From Bdellovibrionales bacterium (GTDB lineage Bacteria; Bdellovibrionota; UBA1018; CAIMNF01), in assembly GCA_947502835.1 (NCBI GenBank), contig CANNBJ010000003.1:310001-374000 (forward strand): a stretch of 64,000 nucleotides of DNA, given 5' to 3'. Position numbers and translations under genes: made by a program. Positions 5,660 through 16,494 of the stretch are shown one piece after another (the stretch's first letter is position 1; the number at the start of each line of letters is the position of its first letter). Under the pieces are notes generated by a model. It did not search any database, was not told where the DNA came from, and was given only the letters and a program-made list of their open reading frames with translations.

Positions 5660-5972
5660 GGCAGGACCGGAGGAGCAGGAACCATGCCGATGGGAGAACT
5701 CATCGAGGACGACCTCAGTGTTATTGAGTGCATGAAGAGTAGACAGTTGATCAAGAACCATACGAAACTTGGGAATATTCACTAAAACTGGTCCAATGAA
5801 AAATCATTCCGGTACCTGAGGTTTGGATCATGTGGTTAGGGGAATTCTATTCAAGTCCACGCCAGGCGGAGATGCTGAATCCAACAGGATTCAATGAAAT
5901 TCATTGTAAAAAATCGGAATTCAATTAAAACCTGCCAAGAACCCGGTCAAATGGATTAAACTGAATTTGGGC
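5660..5972. other. Divergent intergenic region with an AT-rich perfect palindrome
   Basis: About 310 bases between the protease and the family A gene. The left third could still encode an N-terminal extension of the protease. The remainder is AT-rich, with a perfect inverted repeat at 5892-5906 (arms of 7 around one base) and several gaattc/attca repeats, and it must hold the promoters of both genes. No terminator, tRNA or known riboswitch was seen. Confidence 0.5.
5892..5906. promoter_or_regulatory. Candidate operator palindrome CAATGAA-A-TTCATTG
   Basis: A perfect 7-1-7 inverted repeat located about 65 bases upstream of the family A start codon and in the shared divergent promoter region. 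Size and symmetry suit a dimeric repressor or activator. The cognate regulator is unknown, and AT-rich DNA produces such repeats by chance at some rate. Confidence 0.35.
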
Positions 5973-7460
5973 ATGAAAAAAAGAATTGGATTCAAAACAA
6001 AGGTCTTTGGTGTCTTGGCAGTGTTAACAGGAATCCTCCTCACGGATTCCCGTCACAGTTTCGCTTCAAACGGGAATTCGTGCTCCAATTCAGCTCCTCA
6101 GGAGGGACTTTGCAAGGGGGTGTTCCTTGTAGATCTTTCCTTTTGTGAAAGTTGTGCGATCAAGGAGAACGCGGCGAGACTCCAAACACCCCCCGATTTC
6201 CGGAATCGTGACTTCTTTGACAAAATGGTGAAAAACGCGTTTGAGGGGGCCCAATTCCAAGGCAACTATCGCGGGTATCAGGAAGAGCCTGGATTTCAGA
6301 AAGAACTTGAAGCGTACAAACCGGTATTCAGCGCCTTTCAGGAAGCACAGAAGAGAGTCAAGGATCTGGATGAAAGGCGAAAATCCGGAAGACCTGTGAG
6401 CGGGATTGAAGCGGAGAGCGCTAATCAGAACCTCAAGACTGCCTACCAAAAACTTTTGGATGGTTCGAGAAAACTTGAGCAGGTTCGAGCCAGCCTCAGC
6501 AAGCCGTGGTTTGAATCTTATTTGAGTGACTTTCAAAAACGTTTGAAAGCCGGGGATGTCAAGGCAAAGGTTCAGGATCTGGCGAAATCCAAATTCTGTG
6601 CCTATGGGGTGGAGATGAGGATGCTGCCTGTTCCCGGGATTCAAGTCAGTCGGTTTGATCTTTCGAATTCTGGCGATTCCATTCGACGAAAACAGGCAAT
6701 CGATACGGCACGATCGGAGCTTTCCGAGAGAATCAAGAATGCGGAAAGCTCTGGCGACACCTTTTGTTCCGCACCGACTCGAATGAATTCCCTCTTGGAG
6801 AGTATCCCGAAACGGGAGTCGCTCACCCTGACGCAGGAGGAATTCTTTGCAGACAACCAGACCACCCTGACCCCGGCACAACTGAAAAAGATTCAGGCAA
6901 GAATCGATCAGTCGCTGATCCCTTCGGCTCCGGGCTGCAAGAAGACTATCAAATCCCTGGATCTTCAGACCTCGGCGAACGCCCTTGCCAATACCGGATC
7001 GGTTTGGGGAACGCCCGAGAATCGATTCAACTTCGAGTCGCTGTCAAGCGAGAGGGCGCAGAGTCTTGCGGCTGTGGTCACGTCGCATTTAACTGCCCGT
7101 TCCTCGTCTTCCGGCGGAACAATTGAGATCACGGAGGCTGCGAAGGAGGCAAGGATTGATTCCTCTGGAGAAAACGGAGATGGAACCAGTGGTCCCTGTC
7201 CCTATGAGATGAGGAATGTTCCGGGAGATCCGGGAGGGGACAGCGGGAAGATAATGATCGTGAAGAAGCCCGGCGCCGACAAACAGTTCGAGGACAAGCT
7301 GAAGGAAGCGAAATTCGCTCGAATCGACATTGAAACTGTCGAAAATTGTCCCGCGGTCAAGGAAGAGGAGGAAGCCTCCGGAACAGCCGCGCCAAAACGA
7401 GTCGATTACTTCGCAACAAAGTGCTTTCAGGCCGAGATCTCTTGCAGGGCGGGACCATAG
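5973..7460 (+). CDS. Secreted Cys-containing protein, family member A (OmpA-like C-terminal segment)
   Basis: Function not recognised. The ATG at 5973 is preferred over the TTG two codons upstream. Residues 1-32 form a signal peptide. After it comes a conserved cysteine motif (CESCAIKENAARLQ), then a long helical, Lys/Glu/Gln-rich middle, probably coiled coil. Further on is a region (KTIKSLDLQTSAN, then FNFESLSSERAQSL) that resembles the strand and LSxxRAxxV helix of OmpA-like peptidoglycan-binding domains, followed by GTSGPCPYEM and a C-terminal pair of cysteines. The minus-strand gene at 14951-16363 carries the same motifs in the same order, so this is one of two divergent paralogs in the window. 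Even numbers of periplasmic cysteines suggest disulfides. An envelope structural role is inference. Confidence 0.75.
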   Translation: MKKRIGFKTKVFGVLAVLTGILLTDSRHSFASNGNSCSNSAPQEGLCKGVFLVDLSFCESCAIKENAARLQTPPDFRNRDFFDKMVKNAFEGAQFQGNYRGYQEEPGFQKELEAYKPVFSAFQEAQKRVKDLDERRKSGRPVSGIEAESANQNLKTAYQKLLDGSRKLEQVRASLSKPWFESYLSDFQKRLKAGDVKAKVQDLAKSKFCAYGVEMRMLPVPGIQVSRFDLSNSGDSIRRKQAIDTARSELSERIKNAESSGDTFCSAPTRMNSLLESIPKRESLTLTQEEFFADNQTTLTPAQLKKIQARIDQSLIPSAPGCKKTIKSLDLQTSANALANTGSVWGTPENRFNFESLSSERAQSLAAVVTSHLTARSSSSGGTIEITEAAKEARIDSSGENGDGTSGPCPYEMRNVPGDPGGDSGKIMIVKKPGADKQFEDKLKEAKFARIDIETVENCPAVKEEEEASGTAAPKRVDYFATKCFQAEISCRAGP

Positions 7461-7499: not shown

Positions 7500-8282
7500 T
7501 TACAGATACAATCGATCCGGATCAATCTTATCCCGAAGAATCTCAAGGGTTTTTGTATCCGGATCCGGAATGGTCCGAAGGCTTGGCGCGATCTTCAGAT
7601 CCCAGCCACAGTTCTGTTTCACTTGCTCGACCGTCACGCCATCAAAGATTTCGGTCAGCGTGAACTCGCCATCGATCATCTCAAGAACCCCGAGATCCGT
7701 AATCGCCTTGGTGGGGCCACCGCCCGGAAGTTTCAGGTCAACGCGGGTCTTGCCCAGATACTTTGAGGGTTTTGTTGAGTCCATGCGGGAGCCGGGGCTT
7801 GTGACAAAATCGCATTTCGCAACAAAGCTCTTCGGACTCATTCGCATCATGATGAGCACTCGTTGCGAATGGGTTGCGATTTCGCAGGCTCCGCCCGATC
7901 CCGGAAGGCGGATCTTCGGGTTGTCGTATTCGCCGATCACGGTCGTGTTGATGTTTCCATAACGATCAACCTGGGCTCCGCCCAAGAACCCCACTTCGAT
8001 GAGTCCGCCCTGCAAATACTGCTGAAAAATATCGGCCTGCGAAACAATCGCCAAAGAATCAGTCACGAGGGTCGGGTCGCCGATGGAAACCGGAAGACGC
8101 GCAGGGAGGGTTCCGATTGTCCCGCTTTCATAGATCATGAAAAGCTCCGGAGCATGGATGGCACGCGCGAGGTTGCAGGCAAGATTTGGAAGTCCGATTC
8201 CGACGAACACGACTTCGCGGTTTTTCAGTTCCTGGGATGCACGGACCGCCATGCGTTCGGAGGGTTTCAGATTAGTATCCAT
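7500..8282 (-). CDS. CoA-transferase family I, subunit B (glutaconate/3-oxoacid type)
   Basis: Beta subunit of a family I CoA-transferase, which moves CoA between acyl groups through a glutamyl-CoA thioester. The 260-residue protein has the subunit B features GIGLPNLACNLA, the catalytic Glu context LFMIYESGTIG and GFLGGAQVDRYGNINTTVIG. It starts 11 bases inside the end of the subunit A gene, so the pair is translationally coupled. The sequence suits the glutaconate CoA-transferase (GctB-like) branch at least as well as SCOT/AtoA, so the acyl substrate is left open. Neighbouring aminotransferases and an aldehyde dehydrogenase suggest it activates a mono- or dicarboxylic acid produced from an amino acid. 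Confidence 0.88.
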   Translation of the reverse strand: MDTNLKPSERMAVRASQELKNREVVFVGIGLPNLACNLARAIHAPELFMIYESGTIGTLPARLPVSIGDPTLVTDSLAIVSQADIFQQYLQGGLIEVGFLGGAQVDRYGNINTTVIGEYDNPKIRLPGSGGACEIATHSQRVLIMMRMSPKSFVAKCDFVTSPGSRMDSTKPSKYLGKTRVDLKLPGGGPTKAITDLGVLEMIDGEFTLTEIFDGVTVEQVKQNCGWDLKIAPSLRTIPDPDTKTLEILRDKIDPDRLYL

Positions 8283-9201
8283 AATCGACTCCTTCGCACT
8301 TGCGGGGCTTTGCAGTCAGGCGGTCGATGAGTCCGCGTCCGACTTTTGCGAGGTATCCTTGCCGGTCCTTCACGCCATACACAAACTCATTCAGGTAATC
8401 TTGGTAGGTTTTCGGATCGCGCGAGATCTCTTCCCACTTCACATAAAAGTCATTGTCGCGATCATAATACCCTTGGGCATAAGAGGGGTGACAGCCCCAG
8501 GGTTCATGCACCACGTGATCCACAAGGATACCCGGGATCAAGGTGCGATTCGGGTCGCGACGGATGAGCGAGGTGTCGACGATTTCTTCCGCAACGATGA
8601 TCACGCGCTTTGAGGCAAAGGCGATTTCCTTCTGTGTGCCCATGAGGCCCCAGACCTGCGAGTTGCCTTCGCGATCCGCCCGTTGCACATGAATCACCGC
8701 CACATCCGGGTTCAGCGCAGGCACGGTGGCCAGGCGATTGCCGGTGTACGGACAAGTAATGGATTTGATTTTCGGGTTCGATTCCTCGATGTGGGTGCCC
8801 TCGAAGTTCTTGAGCGGCCAAAAGGGGAGGCCCGAGCTTCCGGCAAGCGATCGCGCAACCATTCCGAAATGCGAGTACTCTTCGAGTTCAAGCTTGGATG
8901 CGGAATCCTTCTGGGATCTGCGTCTGAGCGCATGAAGTGATCCGACGCCCGGATTTCCGGCCCACGAGAATACGAGTTTTTTTACGAGGCCTGCTTCGAT
9001 CAATTGGTCATAGACGAGATCAGGGGTCAGGCGGATTGCAGTGAGATCCTTGATTCCCTGGCGGATGATCTCGTGTCCTGCAGCAAAGGAAATCAGGTGG
9101 GTGAAGCCTTCAAGGTAAAGATCACAGCCGGGCTTTACCGCATCTGCGATTGCCTCACGCATGTTGACGATTTTATTCGGTGCAAGTTTTGGCTTACGCA
9201 T
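8272..9201 (-). CDS. CoA-transferase family I, subunit A
   Basis: Alpha subunit partner of the downstream CoA-transferase gene. The N-terminal KIVNMREAIADAVKPGCDLYLEGF and the DVAVIHVQRADREGN segment are characteristic of GctA-like alpha subunits. At 309 residues it is longer than SCOT/AtoD-type alpha subunits and close to glutaconate CoA-transferase A. The start overlaps the end of the upstream aminotransferase by 8 bases and the end overlaps subunit B by 11, so three genes form a compact minus-strand operon. Substrate assignment needs more than homology; a dicarboxylate such as glutarate or glutaconate would fit the family branch. Confidence 0.88.
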   Translation of the reverse strand: MRKPKLAPNKIVNMREAIADAVKPGCDLYLEGFTHLISFAAGHEIIRQGIKDLTAIRLTPDLVYDQLIEAGLVKKLVFSWAGNPGVGSLHALRRRSQKDSASKLELEEYSHFGMVARSLAGSSGLPFWPLKNFEGTHIEESNPKIKSITCPYTGNRLATVPALNPDVAVIHVQRADREGNSQVWGLMGTQKEIAFASKRVIIVAEEIVDTSLIRRDPNRTLIPGILVDHVVHEPWGCHPSYAQGYYDRDNDFYVKWEEISRDPKTYQDYLNEFVYGVKDRQGYLAKVGRGLIDRLTAKPRKCEGVDYGY

Positions 9202-10531
9202 GTCCGAGTTCCGTCAAGCACTGATCCAGGATCTCAAGGCCGACCTTTATGTCGGCTTCCGTGATAATCAGCGGAGGCGCAAAACGAATTGTCGATTTTC
9301 CGCAGGACAAGAGCAAAAGCCCCTTCCGGAAGGCAAGCTGCTCGAGCTTCCCGACATACTCAGTCGCAGGAGTGCCATCTTTTTGGATGAACTCGGCACC
9401 GATCATGAGGCCCACTCCGCGGATATCTCCGATGGAAGGATGCTTCTTTTGAAGTCTTCTCAGCTCTTCGATAAAGAATGCGCCGGTTTTTTTGATCTGC
9501 GGCAACATCCCGCCAATGATTTCAAGCGTTGCATTTGCAGCAGCACAGCAAACGGGGTTTCCGCCATAAGTCGAACCGTGAGTGCCGCGGCCCCAGGTCA
9601 TCTTCGAGGTCTTGGCGATAATTGCACCAATCGGCATTCCGGAGGCGATTCCTTTTGCGGAGAGAATCACATCGGGGGTAATGCCAAGGGTTTCTGCTGC
9701 AAACATGTCACCCGTGCGGCCAATGCCGGATTGCACTTCATCAAACACCAGAACAATGCCGTGCTTGTCGCAGATTGCGCGCAGATCCCGCAAAAACTTG
9801 AGGGACGGCATGATGTAGCCGCCTTCGCCTTGAATCGGCTCGACGAAGATTGCTGCGACTTCATCAGGCGAGAAGTGCGAGGTGAACCAATCGTCTTCGA
9901 GTTTCTTCCCGCAAACGCAGTTGTTCTCGCACCAGGTTTTTTCGTTTTTGTATGCGCAACGGTACGGATAGGAATACGGGAGGTGATAAATCTCAGGCAG
10001 CAAGGGCCCGAAGTGCGCTTTTTGTGTGGGCTTTGACGAATTCAGTGTGATTGCGCCCATGGTGCGCCCGTGGAATGCACCCTTGAAGGCAATGACCTTC
10101 GTGCGGCGAGTGTGGTAGCGCGCAAGTTTGATTGCGCCTTCGACCGCTTCGGTACCCGAGTTTGTCAGGAATACTTTGGTCTCACCCATGTAGGGTTTCA
10201 CCGCGCTCGATAGATTCTCGCAGAGCTTCACCATCGATTCGTAATAAAAATCAGTGCCGCAGATATGGAGAAACTTTCCTGCCGCATCCTGGACTGCCTT
10301 GACCACCTTCGGGTGGGCATGGCCTGTAGAGGTCACCGCGATGCCTGCCATGAAATCAAGATACGAGTTGCCATCAACATCGTACACGTACATGCCTTCG
10401 CCATGGGACACCACGAGAGGGTATTCCTTGATGTACGAGGGCGATGTTACCGCATGATCGCGATCGATCAGGGCCTTGGCCTTGGGACCGGGAGGAGGAG
10501 TCTTGATCTCGGGGCGTTTTGTGATTTCCAT
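9194..10531 (-). CDS. Class III PLP-dependent aminotransferase (GABA/acetylornithine type)
   Basis: Fold-type I aminotransferase of 445 residues that acts on omega-amino groups. It shows the class III pattern: GTEAVEGAIKLARYHT, AFHGRTMGAITLN, the cofactor-binding FDEVQSGIGRTG and the PLP lysine in ILSAKGIASGMPIGA. A cysteine-rich insertion (YRCAYKNEKTWCENNCVCGK) resembles the one in archaeal-type 4-aminobutyrate aminotransferases. It is the first gene of the aminotransferase-CoA-transferase A-B operon. The likely reaction is conversion of an omega-amino acid such as GABA or 5-aminovalerate to its semialdehyde with 2-oxoglutarate as acceptor. The exact substrate is inferred. Confidence 0.85.
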   Translation of the reverse strand: MEITKRPEIKTPPPGPKAKALIDRDHAVTSPSYIKEYPLVVSHGEGMYVYDVDGNSYLDFMAGIAVTSTGHAHPKVVKAVQDAAGKFLHICGTDFYYESMVKLCENLSSAVKPYMGETKVFLTNSGTEAVEGAIKLARYHTRRTKVIAFKGAFHGRTMGAITLNSSKPTQKAHFGPLLPEIYHLPYSYPYRCAYKNEKTWCENNCVCGKKLEDDWFTSHFSPDEVAAIFVEPIQGEGGYIMPSLKFLRDLRAICDKHGIVLVFDEVQSGIGRTGDMFAAETLGITPDVILSAKGIASGMPIGAIIAKTSKMTWGRGTHGSTYGGNPVCCAAANATLEIIGGMLPQIKKTGAFFIEELRRLQKKHPSIGDIRGVGLMIGAEFIQKDGTPATEYVGKLEQLAFRKGLLLLSCGKSTIRFAPPLIITEADIKVGLEILDQCLTELGHA

Positions 10532-10864
10532 GGCCTGAAACCTACCGCACTTTACCCCGAAAAAAAACGAAGAAGCCCCGGCTAAAGACGTGCCTCAAGA
10601 GCTCTCAATGACAAAGGTTTACATCAGCATTCCGCGATGAACTCTAGTTGGATTCCGACTTTTTGAGCGAGCCGAGGGGCCTGCTTGGAGTGTGTGATCA
10701 GTTAAACCCAGTGTTTGCCGAGGTTGTCTTGGGCAGAGAGGGGGTTTAGCCGACTCTCGCGAGACAGGACTGGCGACAGCGAGGCCGCAGGATGCGGCAT
10801 GGAGGCCTAAACCCTCTCTCTATCCAAGACAGCCGTGTCGAGCCCTTGGTGTCCATGATCCACC
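10532..10864. other. Non-coding region between two catabolic genes, containing a structured element
   Basis: About 330 bases separate the aldehyde dehydrogenase stop from the aminotransferase start on the minus strand. The small ORF in the track here is a shadow of the inverted repeat. The right half holds the cloverleaf-like element at 10722-10834. The left half presumably carries the promoter of the aminotransferase operon, plus a short AGCC/GGCT hairpin beside an A/T run near 10555-10585. Confidence 0.6.
10722..10834. repeat. Long inverted repeat with internal hairpins (candidate structured RNA or mobile palindromic element)
   Basis: Two outer arms of roughly 28 bases, about 10722-10749 and 10804-10834, are almost exact reverse complements (GTCTTGG, AGAG and GGTTTAG in the left arm; CTAAACC, CTCT and CCAAGAC in the right). 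The roughly 53-base interior holds three further hairpin candidates: TCTCGCGAGA at 10755-10764, CTG-GCGA-CAG at 10770-10779 with a GNRA-type loop, and GCCGCA-GGA-TGCGGC at 10784-10798. The whole could fold like a cloverleaf with a very long closing stem. No T-tract follows on either side, so it is not a plain terminator. It does not match tRNA, 6S, SRP or RNase P RNA signatures that I know. Confidence 0.7.
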
Positions 10865-12439
10865 TCACTCCATGATCGTCCGCGATTGCTCCCGCATGAA
10901 CTGCATCACATAGTACGGCCCGCAGCCGCCCTTGCCGGATCCGCCGCCCGAGCCCTTCCAGCCACAAAAGGACTGGACTCCGGGCCAGGCGCCTGTGGTG
11001 GCACCCGTGGCACGGTTTGCGTAAAGGACGCCTGCTTCGATCGAATCCATGAACAAATCGATCTCTTCTTTTTTGGCGGTGAAGATCCCGCTCGTGAGAC
11101 CGTATTCCGCCTTGTTCGCATCCGTGATCGCATCGGGCAGTGAACTGAATTTGGTGACCGCAAGGAAGGGAGAGAAAAACTCATCCTTGAAGTGCCGCGA
11201 AGTGGAGGGGAGTTCGGCGATGGTGGGATCGGCAAAGTGCCCCGCCTTGAACTCGGATTTCTCGCGAAGGTCTGTTCCGCCCCAAAGGATCTTTCCGATG
11301 GCGCGAGCTTCACTGATGGCGGTCAGGTGCCTCTCGACTGCGCGCTGATTGATGACCGGTCCCATGTAGATTTCTTGATTGGCTGGATCGCCCACGGATA
11401 CGAGTTTCCTTGCAGCAGCGAGCAGCTTCTCGACAAACTCGGGATAGATTTTTTCATGAACATAGAGTCGCGAAAGCGCGCTGCATTTTTGGCCCGAGAG
11501 TCCAAAGGCGCTCCGAACACAGCCATTCGCGGCTTTTTCGAGATCAGCGCTCTCGCATACGAATGCGGCGTTCTTTCCACCGAGTTCCACAAGCGCTGGT
11601 TTCGCGTACAGTCCTGAGTTCAAGGTGCGGATGATGCTCATTCCGACCATCTTGCTTCCGGTAAACGCAACCCCGTCACACATCGGATGTTTCACCATCC
11701 ATTCCCCAAGGGCAGGCCCGTTTCCAAAGACCACTTGCAACACGCCTTCAGGAAGGCCCGCATCCCGATACGCGAGATAAATTTCATAGGCAGTGCCCGG
11801 GGCATCATCACTTGGTTTCAGGATGACGCTGTTCCCACCCAAAAGTGCAGCCGAAGTCATGCCGGCACCAAGCGCCATCGGAAAATTAAAGGGCGCAATG
11901 ACCGAAAACACTCCGTAGGGGCGAAGCACATCCTTGGTGTTTTCATTGGGCGAGAGTTTGGCAAGCGGCTGGATGTAACCGTTTGCCTGCTCCATTTGAT
12001 CTGCGTAATAGGCAAGGAGATCTGCGGCTTCTTCAGCGTCGCCCAAGCTCTCCATCCTGTTTTTGCCAACTTCCAGAACCATGAGTGCTGCGATTCTCAT
12101 GCGGCGTTCGCGCATGATGTCCGCTGCTTTCTTGGTGATCGCAACCCGTTCCGTCCAGGGAGTCGCGCCCCAGATTTTTTGGGCGCGTTTTGCCGCGGTG
12201 AATGCCTCATTCAGATCCGCCTCACTTGCAACATGATAGTTGGCAATGAGGAGGGATGTGTTGGTGGGAGAGGTTTTTTTGTTCACCTTTCCGCTTTCAA
12301 CTTTCTTTCCATTCACGATCGAGGGGATCGAGTATCCAAGTGATGATTTTAGGTTTGCGAGAGCTGCATCGAATTCCTTATGGAGTTCGGTGAGGTCGGC
12401 ACTGAGGGCGGAGTAGGTGATTCTGAATCCTTTTGACAT
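10865..12439 (-). CDS. Aldehyde dehydrogenase, 1-pyrroline-5-carboxylate dehydrogenase-like
   Basis: NAD(P)-dependent aldehyde dehydrogenase of 524 residues. The catalytic Cys is near residue 319 (LSGQKCSALSR), the general-base Glu near 286 (ALVELGGKNA), and the nucleotide-binding region has PFNFPMALGAG and VAFTGSK. The C-terminus (GAWPGVQSFCGWKGSG, then GPYYVMQFMREQS) is the signature of glutamate-gamma-semialdehyde dehydrogenases (RocA/PutA C-terminal domain type). It could oxidise glutamate semialdehyde from proline or ornithine, or a related semialdehyde made by the two adjacent aminotransferases. No proline dehydrogenase domain is attached and none is in the window. The start ATG is supported by family length. 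Confidence 0.88.
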   Translation of the reverse strand: MSKGFRITYSALSADLTELHKEFDAALANLKSSLGYSIPSIVNGKKVESGKVNKKTSPTNTSLLIANYHVASEADLNEAFTAAKRAQKIWGATPWTERVAITKKAADIMRERRMRIAALMVLEVGKNRMESLGDAEEAADLLAYYADQMEQANGYIQPLAKLSPNENTKDVLRPYGVFSVIAPFNFPMALGAGMTSAALLGGNSVILKPSDDAPGTAYEIYLAYRDAGLPEGVLQVVFGNGPALGEWMVKHPMCDGVAFTGSKMVGMSIIRTLNSGLYAKPALVELGGKNAAFVCESADLEKAANGCVRSAFGLSGQKCSALSRLYVHEKIYPEFVEKLLAAARKLVSVGDPANQEIYMGPVINQRAVERHLTAISEARAIGKILWGGTDLREKSEFKAGHFADPTIAELPSTSRHFKDEFFSPFLAVTKFSSLPDAITDANKAEYGLTSGIFTAKKEEIDLFMDSIEAGVLYANRATGATTGAWPGVQSFCGWKGSGGGSGKGGCGPYYVMQFMREQSRTIME

Positions 12440-12517
12440 GAGCCGGATTTAATCACACCGTCGCCTGGATTTCCAGTCAAACAAGTGTTTTTTGGCTGTA
12501 GAATCCCTAAAGAGCCA

Positions 12518-13894
12518 TCACAGCGAGAAGCTTAGAATTGCCCTTTTCAACAGGTCCACGCACTCATCGGCTTCCTGCATGCTCATTTCAAGAGACGGCC
12601 CCAGAATCACAAGATCCCCATTCACGCCATCGGCCTGGCCGTAATTCGGCCAAATCACGAGGCCTTGATCTTGGGCATGTTGTACGAATTTTTGCGCAAA
12701 TTTCTTGGCGATCGGAAAGGGTGCTTTTGATGCTTTGTTCTCGACGAATTCAATGCCCGCCATGTGGCCAATTCCGGTGATCGAGCCGACAAAGGGGAGA
12801 GCATGAAGATGAGATTTTAACTCCGAGAGCCAGTGATCAGATACAACCTCTGCCTTTTGCAGGACCTGGTGTTCGTCCATGTATTCAATGACGGAAAGCG
12901 CTGTTGCCGCCATGGATGGAGTTTGCATGTAGGTTTGCGCATGAAGGAATCCGCCAGAGCTCCTTTTCATCGTGTCGACGTCGGTCTTTTTTACGAGCAC
13001 CGCTGCGACCGGCATGAGTCCGGCATTCAGTCCCTTGCCCATGACGAGCAGATCGGGTTTGAAGTCAAAATGTTCCGAGGCAAAAAACTTGCCCGTGCGT
13101 CCAGCCCCGCACATCACCTCATCTGCAATGACCAGGATCTCATGCTTTCTGCAAAGCTCCTGCACGCGGTGAAGATACCCCTTCGGTGGCACCCAAGCGC
13201 CGGTGGAAGAGCCACTTACAGGTTCCAGGAGGAAGGCACTGATCGTATCGGCCCCTTCGTGCTCGATCAGGGTTTCGAGTTCTTTTAGGTAAAATTCTGC
13301 GCCTTTTTCATGATATTCGGCGTGCATTTCTTCAATGTCATTGGACTGCACGACGGGGCAGCGGTACCCGTAGGGGGCGCTCACGGTCAAAACTTGCGAC
13401 AAGAGTGGGCCGTAGACTTTTTTATAATGTGGACGGCCTGAGGCTGAGAGCGCGTACAGAGTGTTGCCGTGATAGCCTGGAGTGCGGGTGATGAGTTTGT
13501 GTTTCGATGGGAATCCGCGATCCACCCAGAGTTGGCGCGCAAACTTGATCGCAGCTTCGATTGCCTCTGAGCCCGAGGCAAGAAGTGAAACCCGATCGAG
13601 TCCCAAGCTTGAAGCCTTCTTGGCAAGGTTTGCAGCAAGTGCTTCCATAGGCCTTGAGGTGAACTGCATGCCGTTCACGTAGGCGACTTTTTTCATCTGG
13701 GCTGCAACTCGATCGGCAAGCTCCGGGTGCCCATGTCCAAGGGTTGTCACGAGTGCGCCACCGGAGGCGTCAAAGTATCTTTTACCTGTTTCATCAAAGA
13801 GATGAACTCCCGATCCGTGCGAAATCACAGGATAGGATTTGTTCAGGTTCCGGAGCAAAACATTGCCTTCAGGGTAGTGAATCGGGTGTGACAT
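12518..13894 (-). CDS. Class III PLP-dependent aminotransferase (second copy type)
   Basis: A 458-residue aminotransferase clearly different from the one at 9194-10531. Motifs are LLASGSEAIEAAIKFARQ, TPGYHGNTLYALSASG, VIADEVMCGAGRTGKF and the PLP lysine in LLVMGKGLNAGLMPVA. It belongs to the omega-amino acid/diamine group of class III enzymes; the substrate (for example GABA, beta-alanine, ornithine, lysine-derived or a diamine) cannot be fixed by eye. It lies 78 bases upstream of the aldehyde dehydrogenase on the same strand. The pair could convert an amino compound to a semialdehyde and then to a carboxylate. Confidence 0.85.
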   Translation of the reverse strand: MSHPIHYPEGNVLLRNLNKSYPVISHGSGVHLFDETGKRYFDASGGALVTTLGHGHPELADRVAAQMKKVAYVNGMQFTSRPMEALAANLAKKASSLGLDRVSLLASGSEAIEAAIKFARQLWVDRGFPSKHKLITRTPGYHGNTLYALSASGRPHYKKVYGPLLSQVLTVSAPYGYRCPVVQSNDIEEMHAEYHEKGAEFYLKELETLIEHEGADTISAFLLEPVSGSSTGAWVPPKGYLHRVQELCRKHEILVIADEVMCGAGRTGKFFASEHFDFKPDLLVMGKGLNAGLMPVAAVLVKKTDVDTMKRSSGGFLHAQTYMQTPSMAATALSVIEYMDEHQVLQKAEVVSDHWLSELKSHLHALPFVGSITGIGHMAGIEFVENKASKAPFPIAKKFAQKFVQHAQDQGLVIWPNYGQADGVNGDLVILGPSLEMSMQEADECVDLLKRAILSFSL

Positions 13895-14950: not shown

Positions 14951-16363
14951 TCAGGGGATGCACTCGTACTTTGGAGTAAGGCACCCTCTCCTGAGAACCG
15001 ATCCAACATACGGAGTCTCCGAAACCCGCTTTGAGCAGGAGTCGCTCTGGGTGAAGTGCAGCGACATTTTGACGTTTTTTGCGCGCTCCAGGGCGACCTG
15101 ATCCCTCAGGGCTTCAGGAACGGATGCAGGATCCCGATCAAAGGCTTCAAGAGCCGCGTCCAATGCTTTTCGCTCTTTTTCAGTTGCAGGAGCCTTCAAG
15201 GTCCGGTTCAAGCGATACACGCCGCTCCCCGATCCGGTTTCGACCAGTTCATACGGACAGGGACCGGATGAACCAGAGCCGCCATCGCCCAGAATCACCC
15301 GTGTTCCTGAAAGGTCCTTGTTCAGGAAGTCCGGGTGGTTCACCTTCGGGAGCACCTTGAGAAGCGAGTTCGCGCGCGCCTCGGTCAGTGATTTGAAGTC
15401 CCATGCATCCCAGGGGGCACCGTTTTGAATCTTGTTGGAGGAAGCTGAAACCTCAATGGATTTCAACTTGCCAAGGCATCCGCCGTGCTTTTTTTGCATG
15501 TCATCGATCTCTTTTTCAATTCTTGCTTTGAGTGCGTCCGGGTCTTTCAATGCAGCGCTGTTGTTTCCGAAAAACTCGGTGGCCCTGATGGAGGCCTCGT
15601 ACTCGGTTCTATATCCGATGACTCGACTGTAATTTGGTTTTGGCTCACTCGTGCAAAACCAATTGCCCCGCACTCCAGCCTGCTTATGGACTTCGATGGC
15701 GCTCTCGAGCTGCGGTTGGGACAGCTTTTTTACCTCTACCTCGGTTTCCGCGACCGCAAGGTCCTTGCCCACTTGGATCGGACCGCTCAGCTCCAAAAGT
15801 GCGCGCGCCCCCTTTTGGCAGCCATGCTTCAGGATGTAGTCATTCATCCTTCCGTCTTGATTTTCAATCATGGCAGTTTTGTCTTCCGGAGTCAGAGCGG
15901 CAATGGTCTTGAGATCGGTCTCCGCTGCGGTTTTCGCTGAAGCCCGGTAGGAGTTGACATCGCTCTTTCCGATTTGATCAATCTTGCAATATTCCCGGCG
16001 TCTCACAAATTCCACGTACCCGATCTTGTCTCCCACCTTGTCAAGGCAGCTCGCCTGACCGATCAACGTGCCATCACTTGTGAAGGCATACCCGTTTGGG
16101 TATCCGTTCCTGATTTCGACCAGACTGTTTTCGAGAAAGAATTGATACTCGTTTTTCTTTCGCTGGGTTCTCGCACTGTTCTCCTTGATCGCGCAGCTTC
16201 CACAATCCTTCGGATTGTTGAGTTTGATGCTTGAACCCGGACAAGGCAATATGTCTGCGATTGATTCGAGCGGGTCGGCAAGCTTGCAGCTGTTCTCCGC
16301 ATGGCTGGAGGCTCCGAAGAACAAAAGAATCGAGATCGCAAACCGGGTGGAACTTGATTTCAT
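14951..16363 (-). CDS. Secreted Cys-containing protein, family member B (OmpA-like C-terminal segment)
   Basis: Paralog of the gene at 5973-7460. The start is set at 16363, because AAAGGAGGGGG lies 6 bases before that ATG and a signal peptide follows (MKSSSTRFAISILLFFGASSHA); the ORF-track start is 13 codons longer. Shared motifs in the same order are CGSCAIKENSARTQ, a helical middle, a segment LKSIEVSASSNK followed by DFKSLTEARANSL that looks like the peptidoglycan-binding part of OmpA-like domains, GSSGPCPYEL and a C-terminal double-Cys tail (CLTPKYECIP). The Asp normally binding diaminopimelate is not visible while the Arg in the EARA/ERAQ motif is kept. Binding to peptidoglycan is therefore uncertain. 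Function otherwise unknown. Confidence 0.75.
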   Translation of the reverse strand: MKSSSTRFAISILLFFGASSHAENSCKLADPLESIADILPCPGSSIKLNNPKDCGSCAIKENSARTQRKKNEYQFFLENSLVEIRNGYPNGYAFTSDGTLIGQASCLDKVGDKIGYVEFVRRREYCKIDQIGKSDVNSYRASAKTAAETDLKTIAALTPEDKTAMIENQDGRMNDYILKHGCQKGARALLELSGPIQVGKDLAVAETEVEVKKLSQPQLESAIEVHKQAGVRGNWFCTSEPKPNYSRVIGYRTEYEASIRATEFFGNNSAALKDPDALKARIEKEIDDMQKKHGGCLGKLKSIEVSASSNKIQNGAPWDAWDFKSLTEARANSLLKVLPKVNHPDFLNKDLSGTRVILGDGGSGSSGPCPYELVETGSGSGVYRLNRTLKAPATEKERKALDAALEAFDRDPASVPEALRDQVALERAKNVKMSLHFTQSDSCSKRVSETPYVGSVLRRGCLTPKYECIP

Positions 16364-16494
16364 AAAAAACCCCCTCCTTTCTGAGTTTACCAAGTGCGTC
16401 ATGAAAACGGAAATAGTTTTAAGGACGGGTCTGATTCAACGAATTTGATTTACCGTACCCGTTCACAAGCATCTGTGCAGCATTTGGAAGGGGA

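Follow-up and report, generated by a model that had tools for sequence, protein, structure and literature searches.

Imperfect intergenic palindromes of 100-200 bp with a MITE-like character, such as the ERIC, RU-1/RU-2, bcr and NEMIS families, are recognised by sequence that is common along much of the unit. REPs are 20-40 bp long, carry a GTAG or CGTC tag, the GTAG type having a Y1 transposase as its partner, and are located after gene ends and between convergent genes (PMC3733652). The arms of a palindrome can also be rewritten by template switching; homogenisation of the arms and inversion of the spacer are known results of this process (PMC8604942 and PMC8794818), and both are predicted for it together with a 5' arm enriched in G and T (PMC8794818, PMC8604942).

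In the window analysed here, a stretch of 64,000 nucleotides from a Bdellovibrionales bacterium, a first-pass annotation had picked out an inverted repeat and proposed either a structured non-coding RNA, possibly the leader of an aminotransferase operon, or a mobile palindromic repeat. We found that the element belongs to a dispersed long-hairpin family of Bdellovibrio relatives that is previously undescribed, the known families having been compared by description and Rfam 15 having returned no match, and we consider it probable that in this new REP/MITE-like palindromic family a folded single strand, probably RNA, is under selection. Its members resemble REPs and RAYT-associated REPINs in being intergenic, palindromic, multi-copy and placed after gene ends or between convergent genes, but they span 85-400 nt, bear a branched conserved head, occur in ~198-bp units in the window's group and show no link to a Y1 gene; of the mobile-repeat proposal, the mobility stood (~40 copies, and unit ends that are those of an insertion sequence), while the REP affiliation did not, by the features tested. 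They share size range, intergenic position and MITE-like character with the ERIC-type palindromes, from which they are set apart, by the descriptions of those families, in that only the head is common to the copies and the arms turn over completely.

The window copy lies between coding regions, as had been noted, with a class-III aminotransferase gene (9194-10531, - strand) on one side and an aldehyde dehydrogenase gene (10865-12439, - strand) on the other, and folding gave a branched head on top of a long stem at 10719-10835. Positions 10715-10840 folded at -69.6 kcal/mol on the + strand (z -5.7) and -62.1 kcal/mol on the - strand (z -5.3), with an equal or better fold in 0/200 shuffles on either strand, which bears out an inverted repeat with two complementary arms. 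The arms of this stem (P1, + strand, from fold and alignment covariation) are near-complementary as described but slightly longer than the ~28 bases reported: the 5' arm, of variable sequence, occupies 10719-10751 and pairs with the 3' arm at 10804-10835, and their G-U pairs fall on the + strand only. An inverted-repeat finder missed the element because it contains no exact 9-base seed. The Rfam 15 search of the hairpin gave no match at the gathering score, in agreement with the earlier failure to place it in a known RNA class, and the matches at E<=10 were to microRNA precursors only and were judged chance; nor does a T-tract follow the hairpin, as also reported. Outside the stem, 10679-10718 and 10836-10876 appear to be the outer left and right parts of a former ~198-bp unit (borders at about -69 and +71), the right part overlapping the final codons of the aldehyde dehydrogenase gene. 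The end repeat is faint here, and by eye the window element looks like an old copy with decayed outer ends.

The head, a conserved core of 57 nt (10749-10805, + strand; all positions below are on this strand), recurs in ~40 copies of its own genome and in relatives, as recovered by blastn, profile and covariance searches. Two hairpins with GGA loops meet in its junction, together with an internal loop (GA/GAAA) and a closing motif (GA..GGA), and the consensus order of the head is stem P1, GA-C, helix P2 (CUYGC/GCRAG) bearing hairpin P2b via the internal loop, hairpin P3 and GGAG. In the window, GAC at 10752-10754, whose columns are invariant in alignments A1 and A2, is the putative 5' half of a tandem G.A closing motif (GA opposite GA) followed by C20, and GGAGG at 10801-10805 is its 3' half, GGAG being present in 66/66 family-A copies; the two GA steps facing each other beside P1 would form tandem sheared pairs. 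The 5' strand of P2 (10756-10760) pairs with its covarying 3' strand (10779-10783), with a compensatory change from C-G to U-A in 9/41 copies. Hairpin P2b (10763-10774) presents GGA in its loop (GGAC at 10767-10770), the 3' side of the P2/P2b internal loop (10774-10779) reads CGACAG where the consensus has CGAAAG, and hairpin P3 (10784-10798, GCCGC-AGGAT-GCGGC) holds the second GGA loop and shows double changes in four of its five pairs. GGA occurs in the P2b loop of 63/66 family-A copies and in the P3 region of 62/66. The first-pass annotation had counted three smaller hairpins, where the head has two; its 6-bp stem with a GGA loop is P3, whereas the bases of its GCGA loop, taken for a GNRA-type loop, are paired in helix P2 of the conserved fold.

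Pairing in head and stem is supported by covariation. In an alignment of 41 sequences, 91.2% of pair cells were standard (73.6% when shuffled) and 214 were double-changed (61.5 when shuffled), numbers to be read with the caveat that template switching can also make paired changes; when partners were slid by 1-3 columns, pairing fell below 45%. Recombination sites of the attC type and domain 5 of group II introns were dismissed by eye, their conserved boxes being wrongly placed. The GGA loops, two per head and more in expanded copies, recall in loop sequence the CsrA/RsmA-binding hairpins of CsrB/RsmZ type; the head loops read CAGGA or AGGAN and differ in this from the full ANGGA consensus. We predict that a protein would recognise the head through its two GGA-loop hairpins. 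Two copies (L097:2909-3023 and L239:1508-1615) have expanded heads with extra hairpins that carry AGGA loops, and these fit such recognition.

Comparing the stretch with its own genome by blastn gave 44 matches, ~36 of them clear and nearly all confined to the central part, with ~20 copies in each of the congeners G008 and G011, and iterated profile searches brought the set to 72 distinct copies; common to them are the central 57 nt, flanked by arms that differ in sequence yet stay complementary. A covariance model placed the head in 16/55 genomes of the order (E <= 0.01): ~41 matches in the window's own genome (G000), 24 in G011, 19 in G008, 30 in G039 of another family, and 1-5 in each of G002, G003, G004, G006, G009, G010, G015, G020, G025, G026, G030 and G034, the weakest of them near threshold. 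Among 369 genomes of the phylum, G250 was the sole further carrier, with two heads. Arms in other genomes shared no evident sequence with those of the window's group and were paired for 30 to >100 bp, G039 containing very long near-perfect palindromes. The exact head pattern occurred in two congeners only among GTDB genomes, a set that possibly does not include the window's own genome, and in none of the viral contigs; the element had no match in phage collections, and a single plasmid match was judged chance. In the G039 copies L202-L221, the outer stems contain, ~60 nt away from the head, a conserved, asymmetric box in which GACGTCCTCGCC faces GGCTGCGGAATGTC, possibly a second recognition site.

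Which strand folds can be read from the stem mismatches, which we counted over the inner 35 bp after an alignment that made no distinction between mismatch types. For the window's group together with the scattered genomes, a set that includes related copies, this gave 108 G-U against 43 A-C mismatches on the strand of the head (p = 1.2e-7); a non-redundant set with G039 gave 98:47, G039 alone showed no inner-stem bias (12:12), and the outer arms had no G-U excess (63:55). The excess did not change with the direction of the upstream gene, being 31:10 where that gene reads the head's sense strand and 44:15 where it reads the antisense, so one strand is favoured as a folded molecule independently of neighbouring transcription. 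These counts show a preference for the window's + strand as the folded single strand along the inner ~35 bp of the stem. Because G.T is stabler than A.C in DNA as well, RNA and ssDNA both fit the bias, which cannot tell them apart.

We favour the reading that the + strand functions as a structured RNA, less likely as an ssDNA hairpin. Because transcription of the neighbouring gene proceeds on the opposite strand at many copies, among them that of the window, an RNA form would depend there on a promoter of its own or on antisense read-through; a local scan found no promoter-like site at the window copy, and no promoter was noticed within the unit. The best-placed competitor, which we hold to be rather unlikely, is that the + strand folds as DNA during replication or under supercoiling, that a protein which processes or structures DNA recognises its tip and that the stem evolves by palindrome-directed template switching. 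The long near-perfect palindromes of G039, the flipping of units described below, the indifference of the strand preference to gene direction, the lack of a conserved promoter and the stability of G.T in DNA all suit this account, but the internal loops of the head are RNA-like, and Y1 (HUH) transposases do not track copy number: G014 has 21 of them and no repeat, whereas the window's genome has one weak match and ~41 repeats. That sole Y1 protein scores below the cut-off and has apparently lost its HUH motif, and across the genomes of the order neither Y1 transposase nor reverse transcriptase counts follow the repeat. A 250-aa Y1-transposase-like protein at L060:1375-2127 has apparently lost the HUH metal-binding motif, and short Y1-like proteins similar to it are widespread in the order.

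The stem itself turns over in blocks as well as in single steps. The window locus has AGAGAG/CTCTCT in one species against a GC-rich pair block in another, and between L005 and L081 the differences are single paired replacements; at two orthologous loci of G008 and G011 the unit lies in opposite orientations, clearly on both flanks at one locus and on one flank at the other, and G and T are in excess in the 5' arm (56-62%). The template-switched RNA hairpins of Monttinen and Loytynoja (2022; PMC8794818) likewise show compensatory changes of several bases, inverted loops and a 5'-arm excess of G and T; the present elements differ from them in a far longer stem borne on a mobile repeat. We infer that the stem is rewritten by template switching: switching between the arms during replication would keep them complementary and sometimes flip the whole unit, and the inner stem would be selected in addition; template switching alone does not yield a one-strand bias. 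Folded-strand selection and DNA-level palindrome repair are usually blurred because both yield compensatory changes, and the >100 natural copies offer a means of separating them, to which the contrast between a G-U-biased inner and an unbiased outer stem speaks directly. The family joins an RNA-like conserved head to a stem that is hyper-variable yet always paired, and transposition has spread the combination. Should the head bind a regulator, an insertion sequence would have amplified a regulatory RNA motif in an order of bacteria that has received little study; the bolder extension, an order-wide Bdellovibrionales class of structured-RNA genes in which a global regulator binds the two-GGA-loop head, template switching rewrites the stem under one-strand selection and transposition has built a genome-wide regulatory system, we regard as speculative.

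Nearly all copies are intergenic and lie close after stop codons, and 14/20 of those in G039 sit between convergent genes, a distribution like that of REPs (PMC3733652). It would suit a REP-like 3'-end element, a hairpin that acts within the mRNA of the upstream gene as a terminator or as 3'-end protection in either orientation; this we judge improbable, as the G-U bias does not track the transcribed strand (44:15 with an antisense upstream gene), the window copy lacks a T-tract and the position after gene ends may reflect tolerated insertion rather than function. Against an aminotransferase leader, which is also unlikely, stand the location of both flanking genes on the - strand, with + as the favoured strand, and the presence of copies in either orientation at many unrelated loci. 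What holds of the structured-RNA proposal is the behaviour of the head, which is that of a selected, structured single strand.

Between unrelated loci of the window's genome and of its two closest congeners, homology reaches to about -69 on one side of the 57-nt head and to about +71 on the other and has sharp borders, which defines a short, non-coding, multi-copy unit of ~198 bp that ends in AACTGGCMYCTTTGARTGGGCATGG and its reverse complement. A ~1-kb insertion sequence with a 303-aa transposase is flanked by the same AACTGGCCCCTTTGARTGGGCATG-type ends; the transposase matches the NCBIfam IS1 model at E 3e-8, far below the cut-off, and no Pfam model. Because unit and insertion sequence share these IS1-like end repeats, the repeat would have spread in the window's group as a MITE, most likely mobilised in trans by the IS1-like element. 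The resemblance to IS1-superfamily MITEs extends to a full IS with the same ends in the same genome, but here the folded head is under locus-level constraint and is present also where the IS was not found, and no target duplication was seen: flank matches at lengths 2-11 were no better than between unrelated copies. The G008/G011 alignments, too diverged or confounded by adjacent copies, contained no clean empty site. In the order as a whole, the repeats are not distributed like the transposase homologues, the head being present without a detected homologue in G002, G003, G004 and G020 and absent from several transposase-rich genomes (G024, G032), so the IS explains the amplification in the window's group and not the head itself. 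IS1-like copies lie in the window's genome at L162:1188-2099, L169:1379-2290 and L170:724-1674 (transposases of 303-316 aa, matching no Pfam model), and transposase homologues occur in 20/55 genomes of the order. Shorter palindromes with the same end repeats and little or no head (L164, L166 and L167) are apparently deletion derivatives.

Orthologous loci reveal how strongly the head is held. Between species it is 96-100% identical in most pairs, the exceptions being pairs that involve G008 at the window locus (88%) and one further pair (91%), whereas identity in arms and flanks mostly drops to ~55-85% (the last two rows of the comparison, not clean orthologues, were left out of the count). 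The window head is 100% identical to its G011 orthologue, with 83% and 55% in the adjoining sequence on the two sides, and orthologous heads keep copy-specific features. A copy lies 3' of tRNA-Ser(TGA) in both G000 and G009 and another 3' of tRNA-Pro(CGG) in both G009 and G006; the right flanks align at 72% and 83% over ~1.4 kb, and the heads are alike where the arms are not. Judged by these alignments, the two loci are ancient, the repeat persisting beside the same tRNA genes in distant congeners.

A plain MITE, a non-autonomous relative of the IS1-like element whose arms are kept similar by template switching and whose head is conserved by recent ancestry or gene conversion, with no host function, would account for the IS-type unit ends, for ~40 copies and for the arm homogenisation and spacer inversion that template switching produces (PMC8604942 and PMC8794818). 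We give it little credence, less even than the 3'-end element, given heads conserved with copy-specific features at orthologous loci, their distribution with respect to the transposase and the strand-specific G-U bias. The repeat is more than a MITE because the head is kept at orthologous loci, persists by tRNA genes and tolerates G-U on one strand. In the selected-strand reading that we prefer, the head is kept at fixed loci and one strand is favoured as the folded form, the IS1-like element would have amplified the unit, and the surviving copies lie directly downstream of the 3' ends of genes. A lone chance or decayed palindrome, to which only the decayed outer ends of the window copy might point, is refuted by the further copies (>100 relatives with a conserved head) and by strong covariation, and we assign it almost no probability.

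Around the element, the - strand of the window from 7500 to 13894 encodes CoA-transferase subunits, two class-III aminotransferases and the aldehyde dehydrogenase, with amino-acid catabolism as the likely role. This metabolic cluster is flanked by two apparently paralogous proteins (5967-7460, + strand, and 14951-16402, - strand) that have no Pfam match and share the motifs SCAIKENxAR and SGPCPYE.
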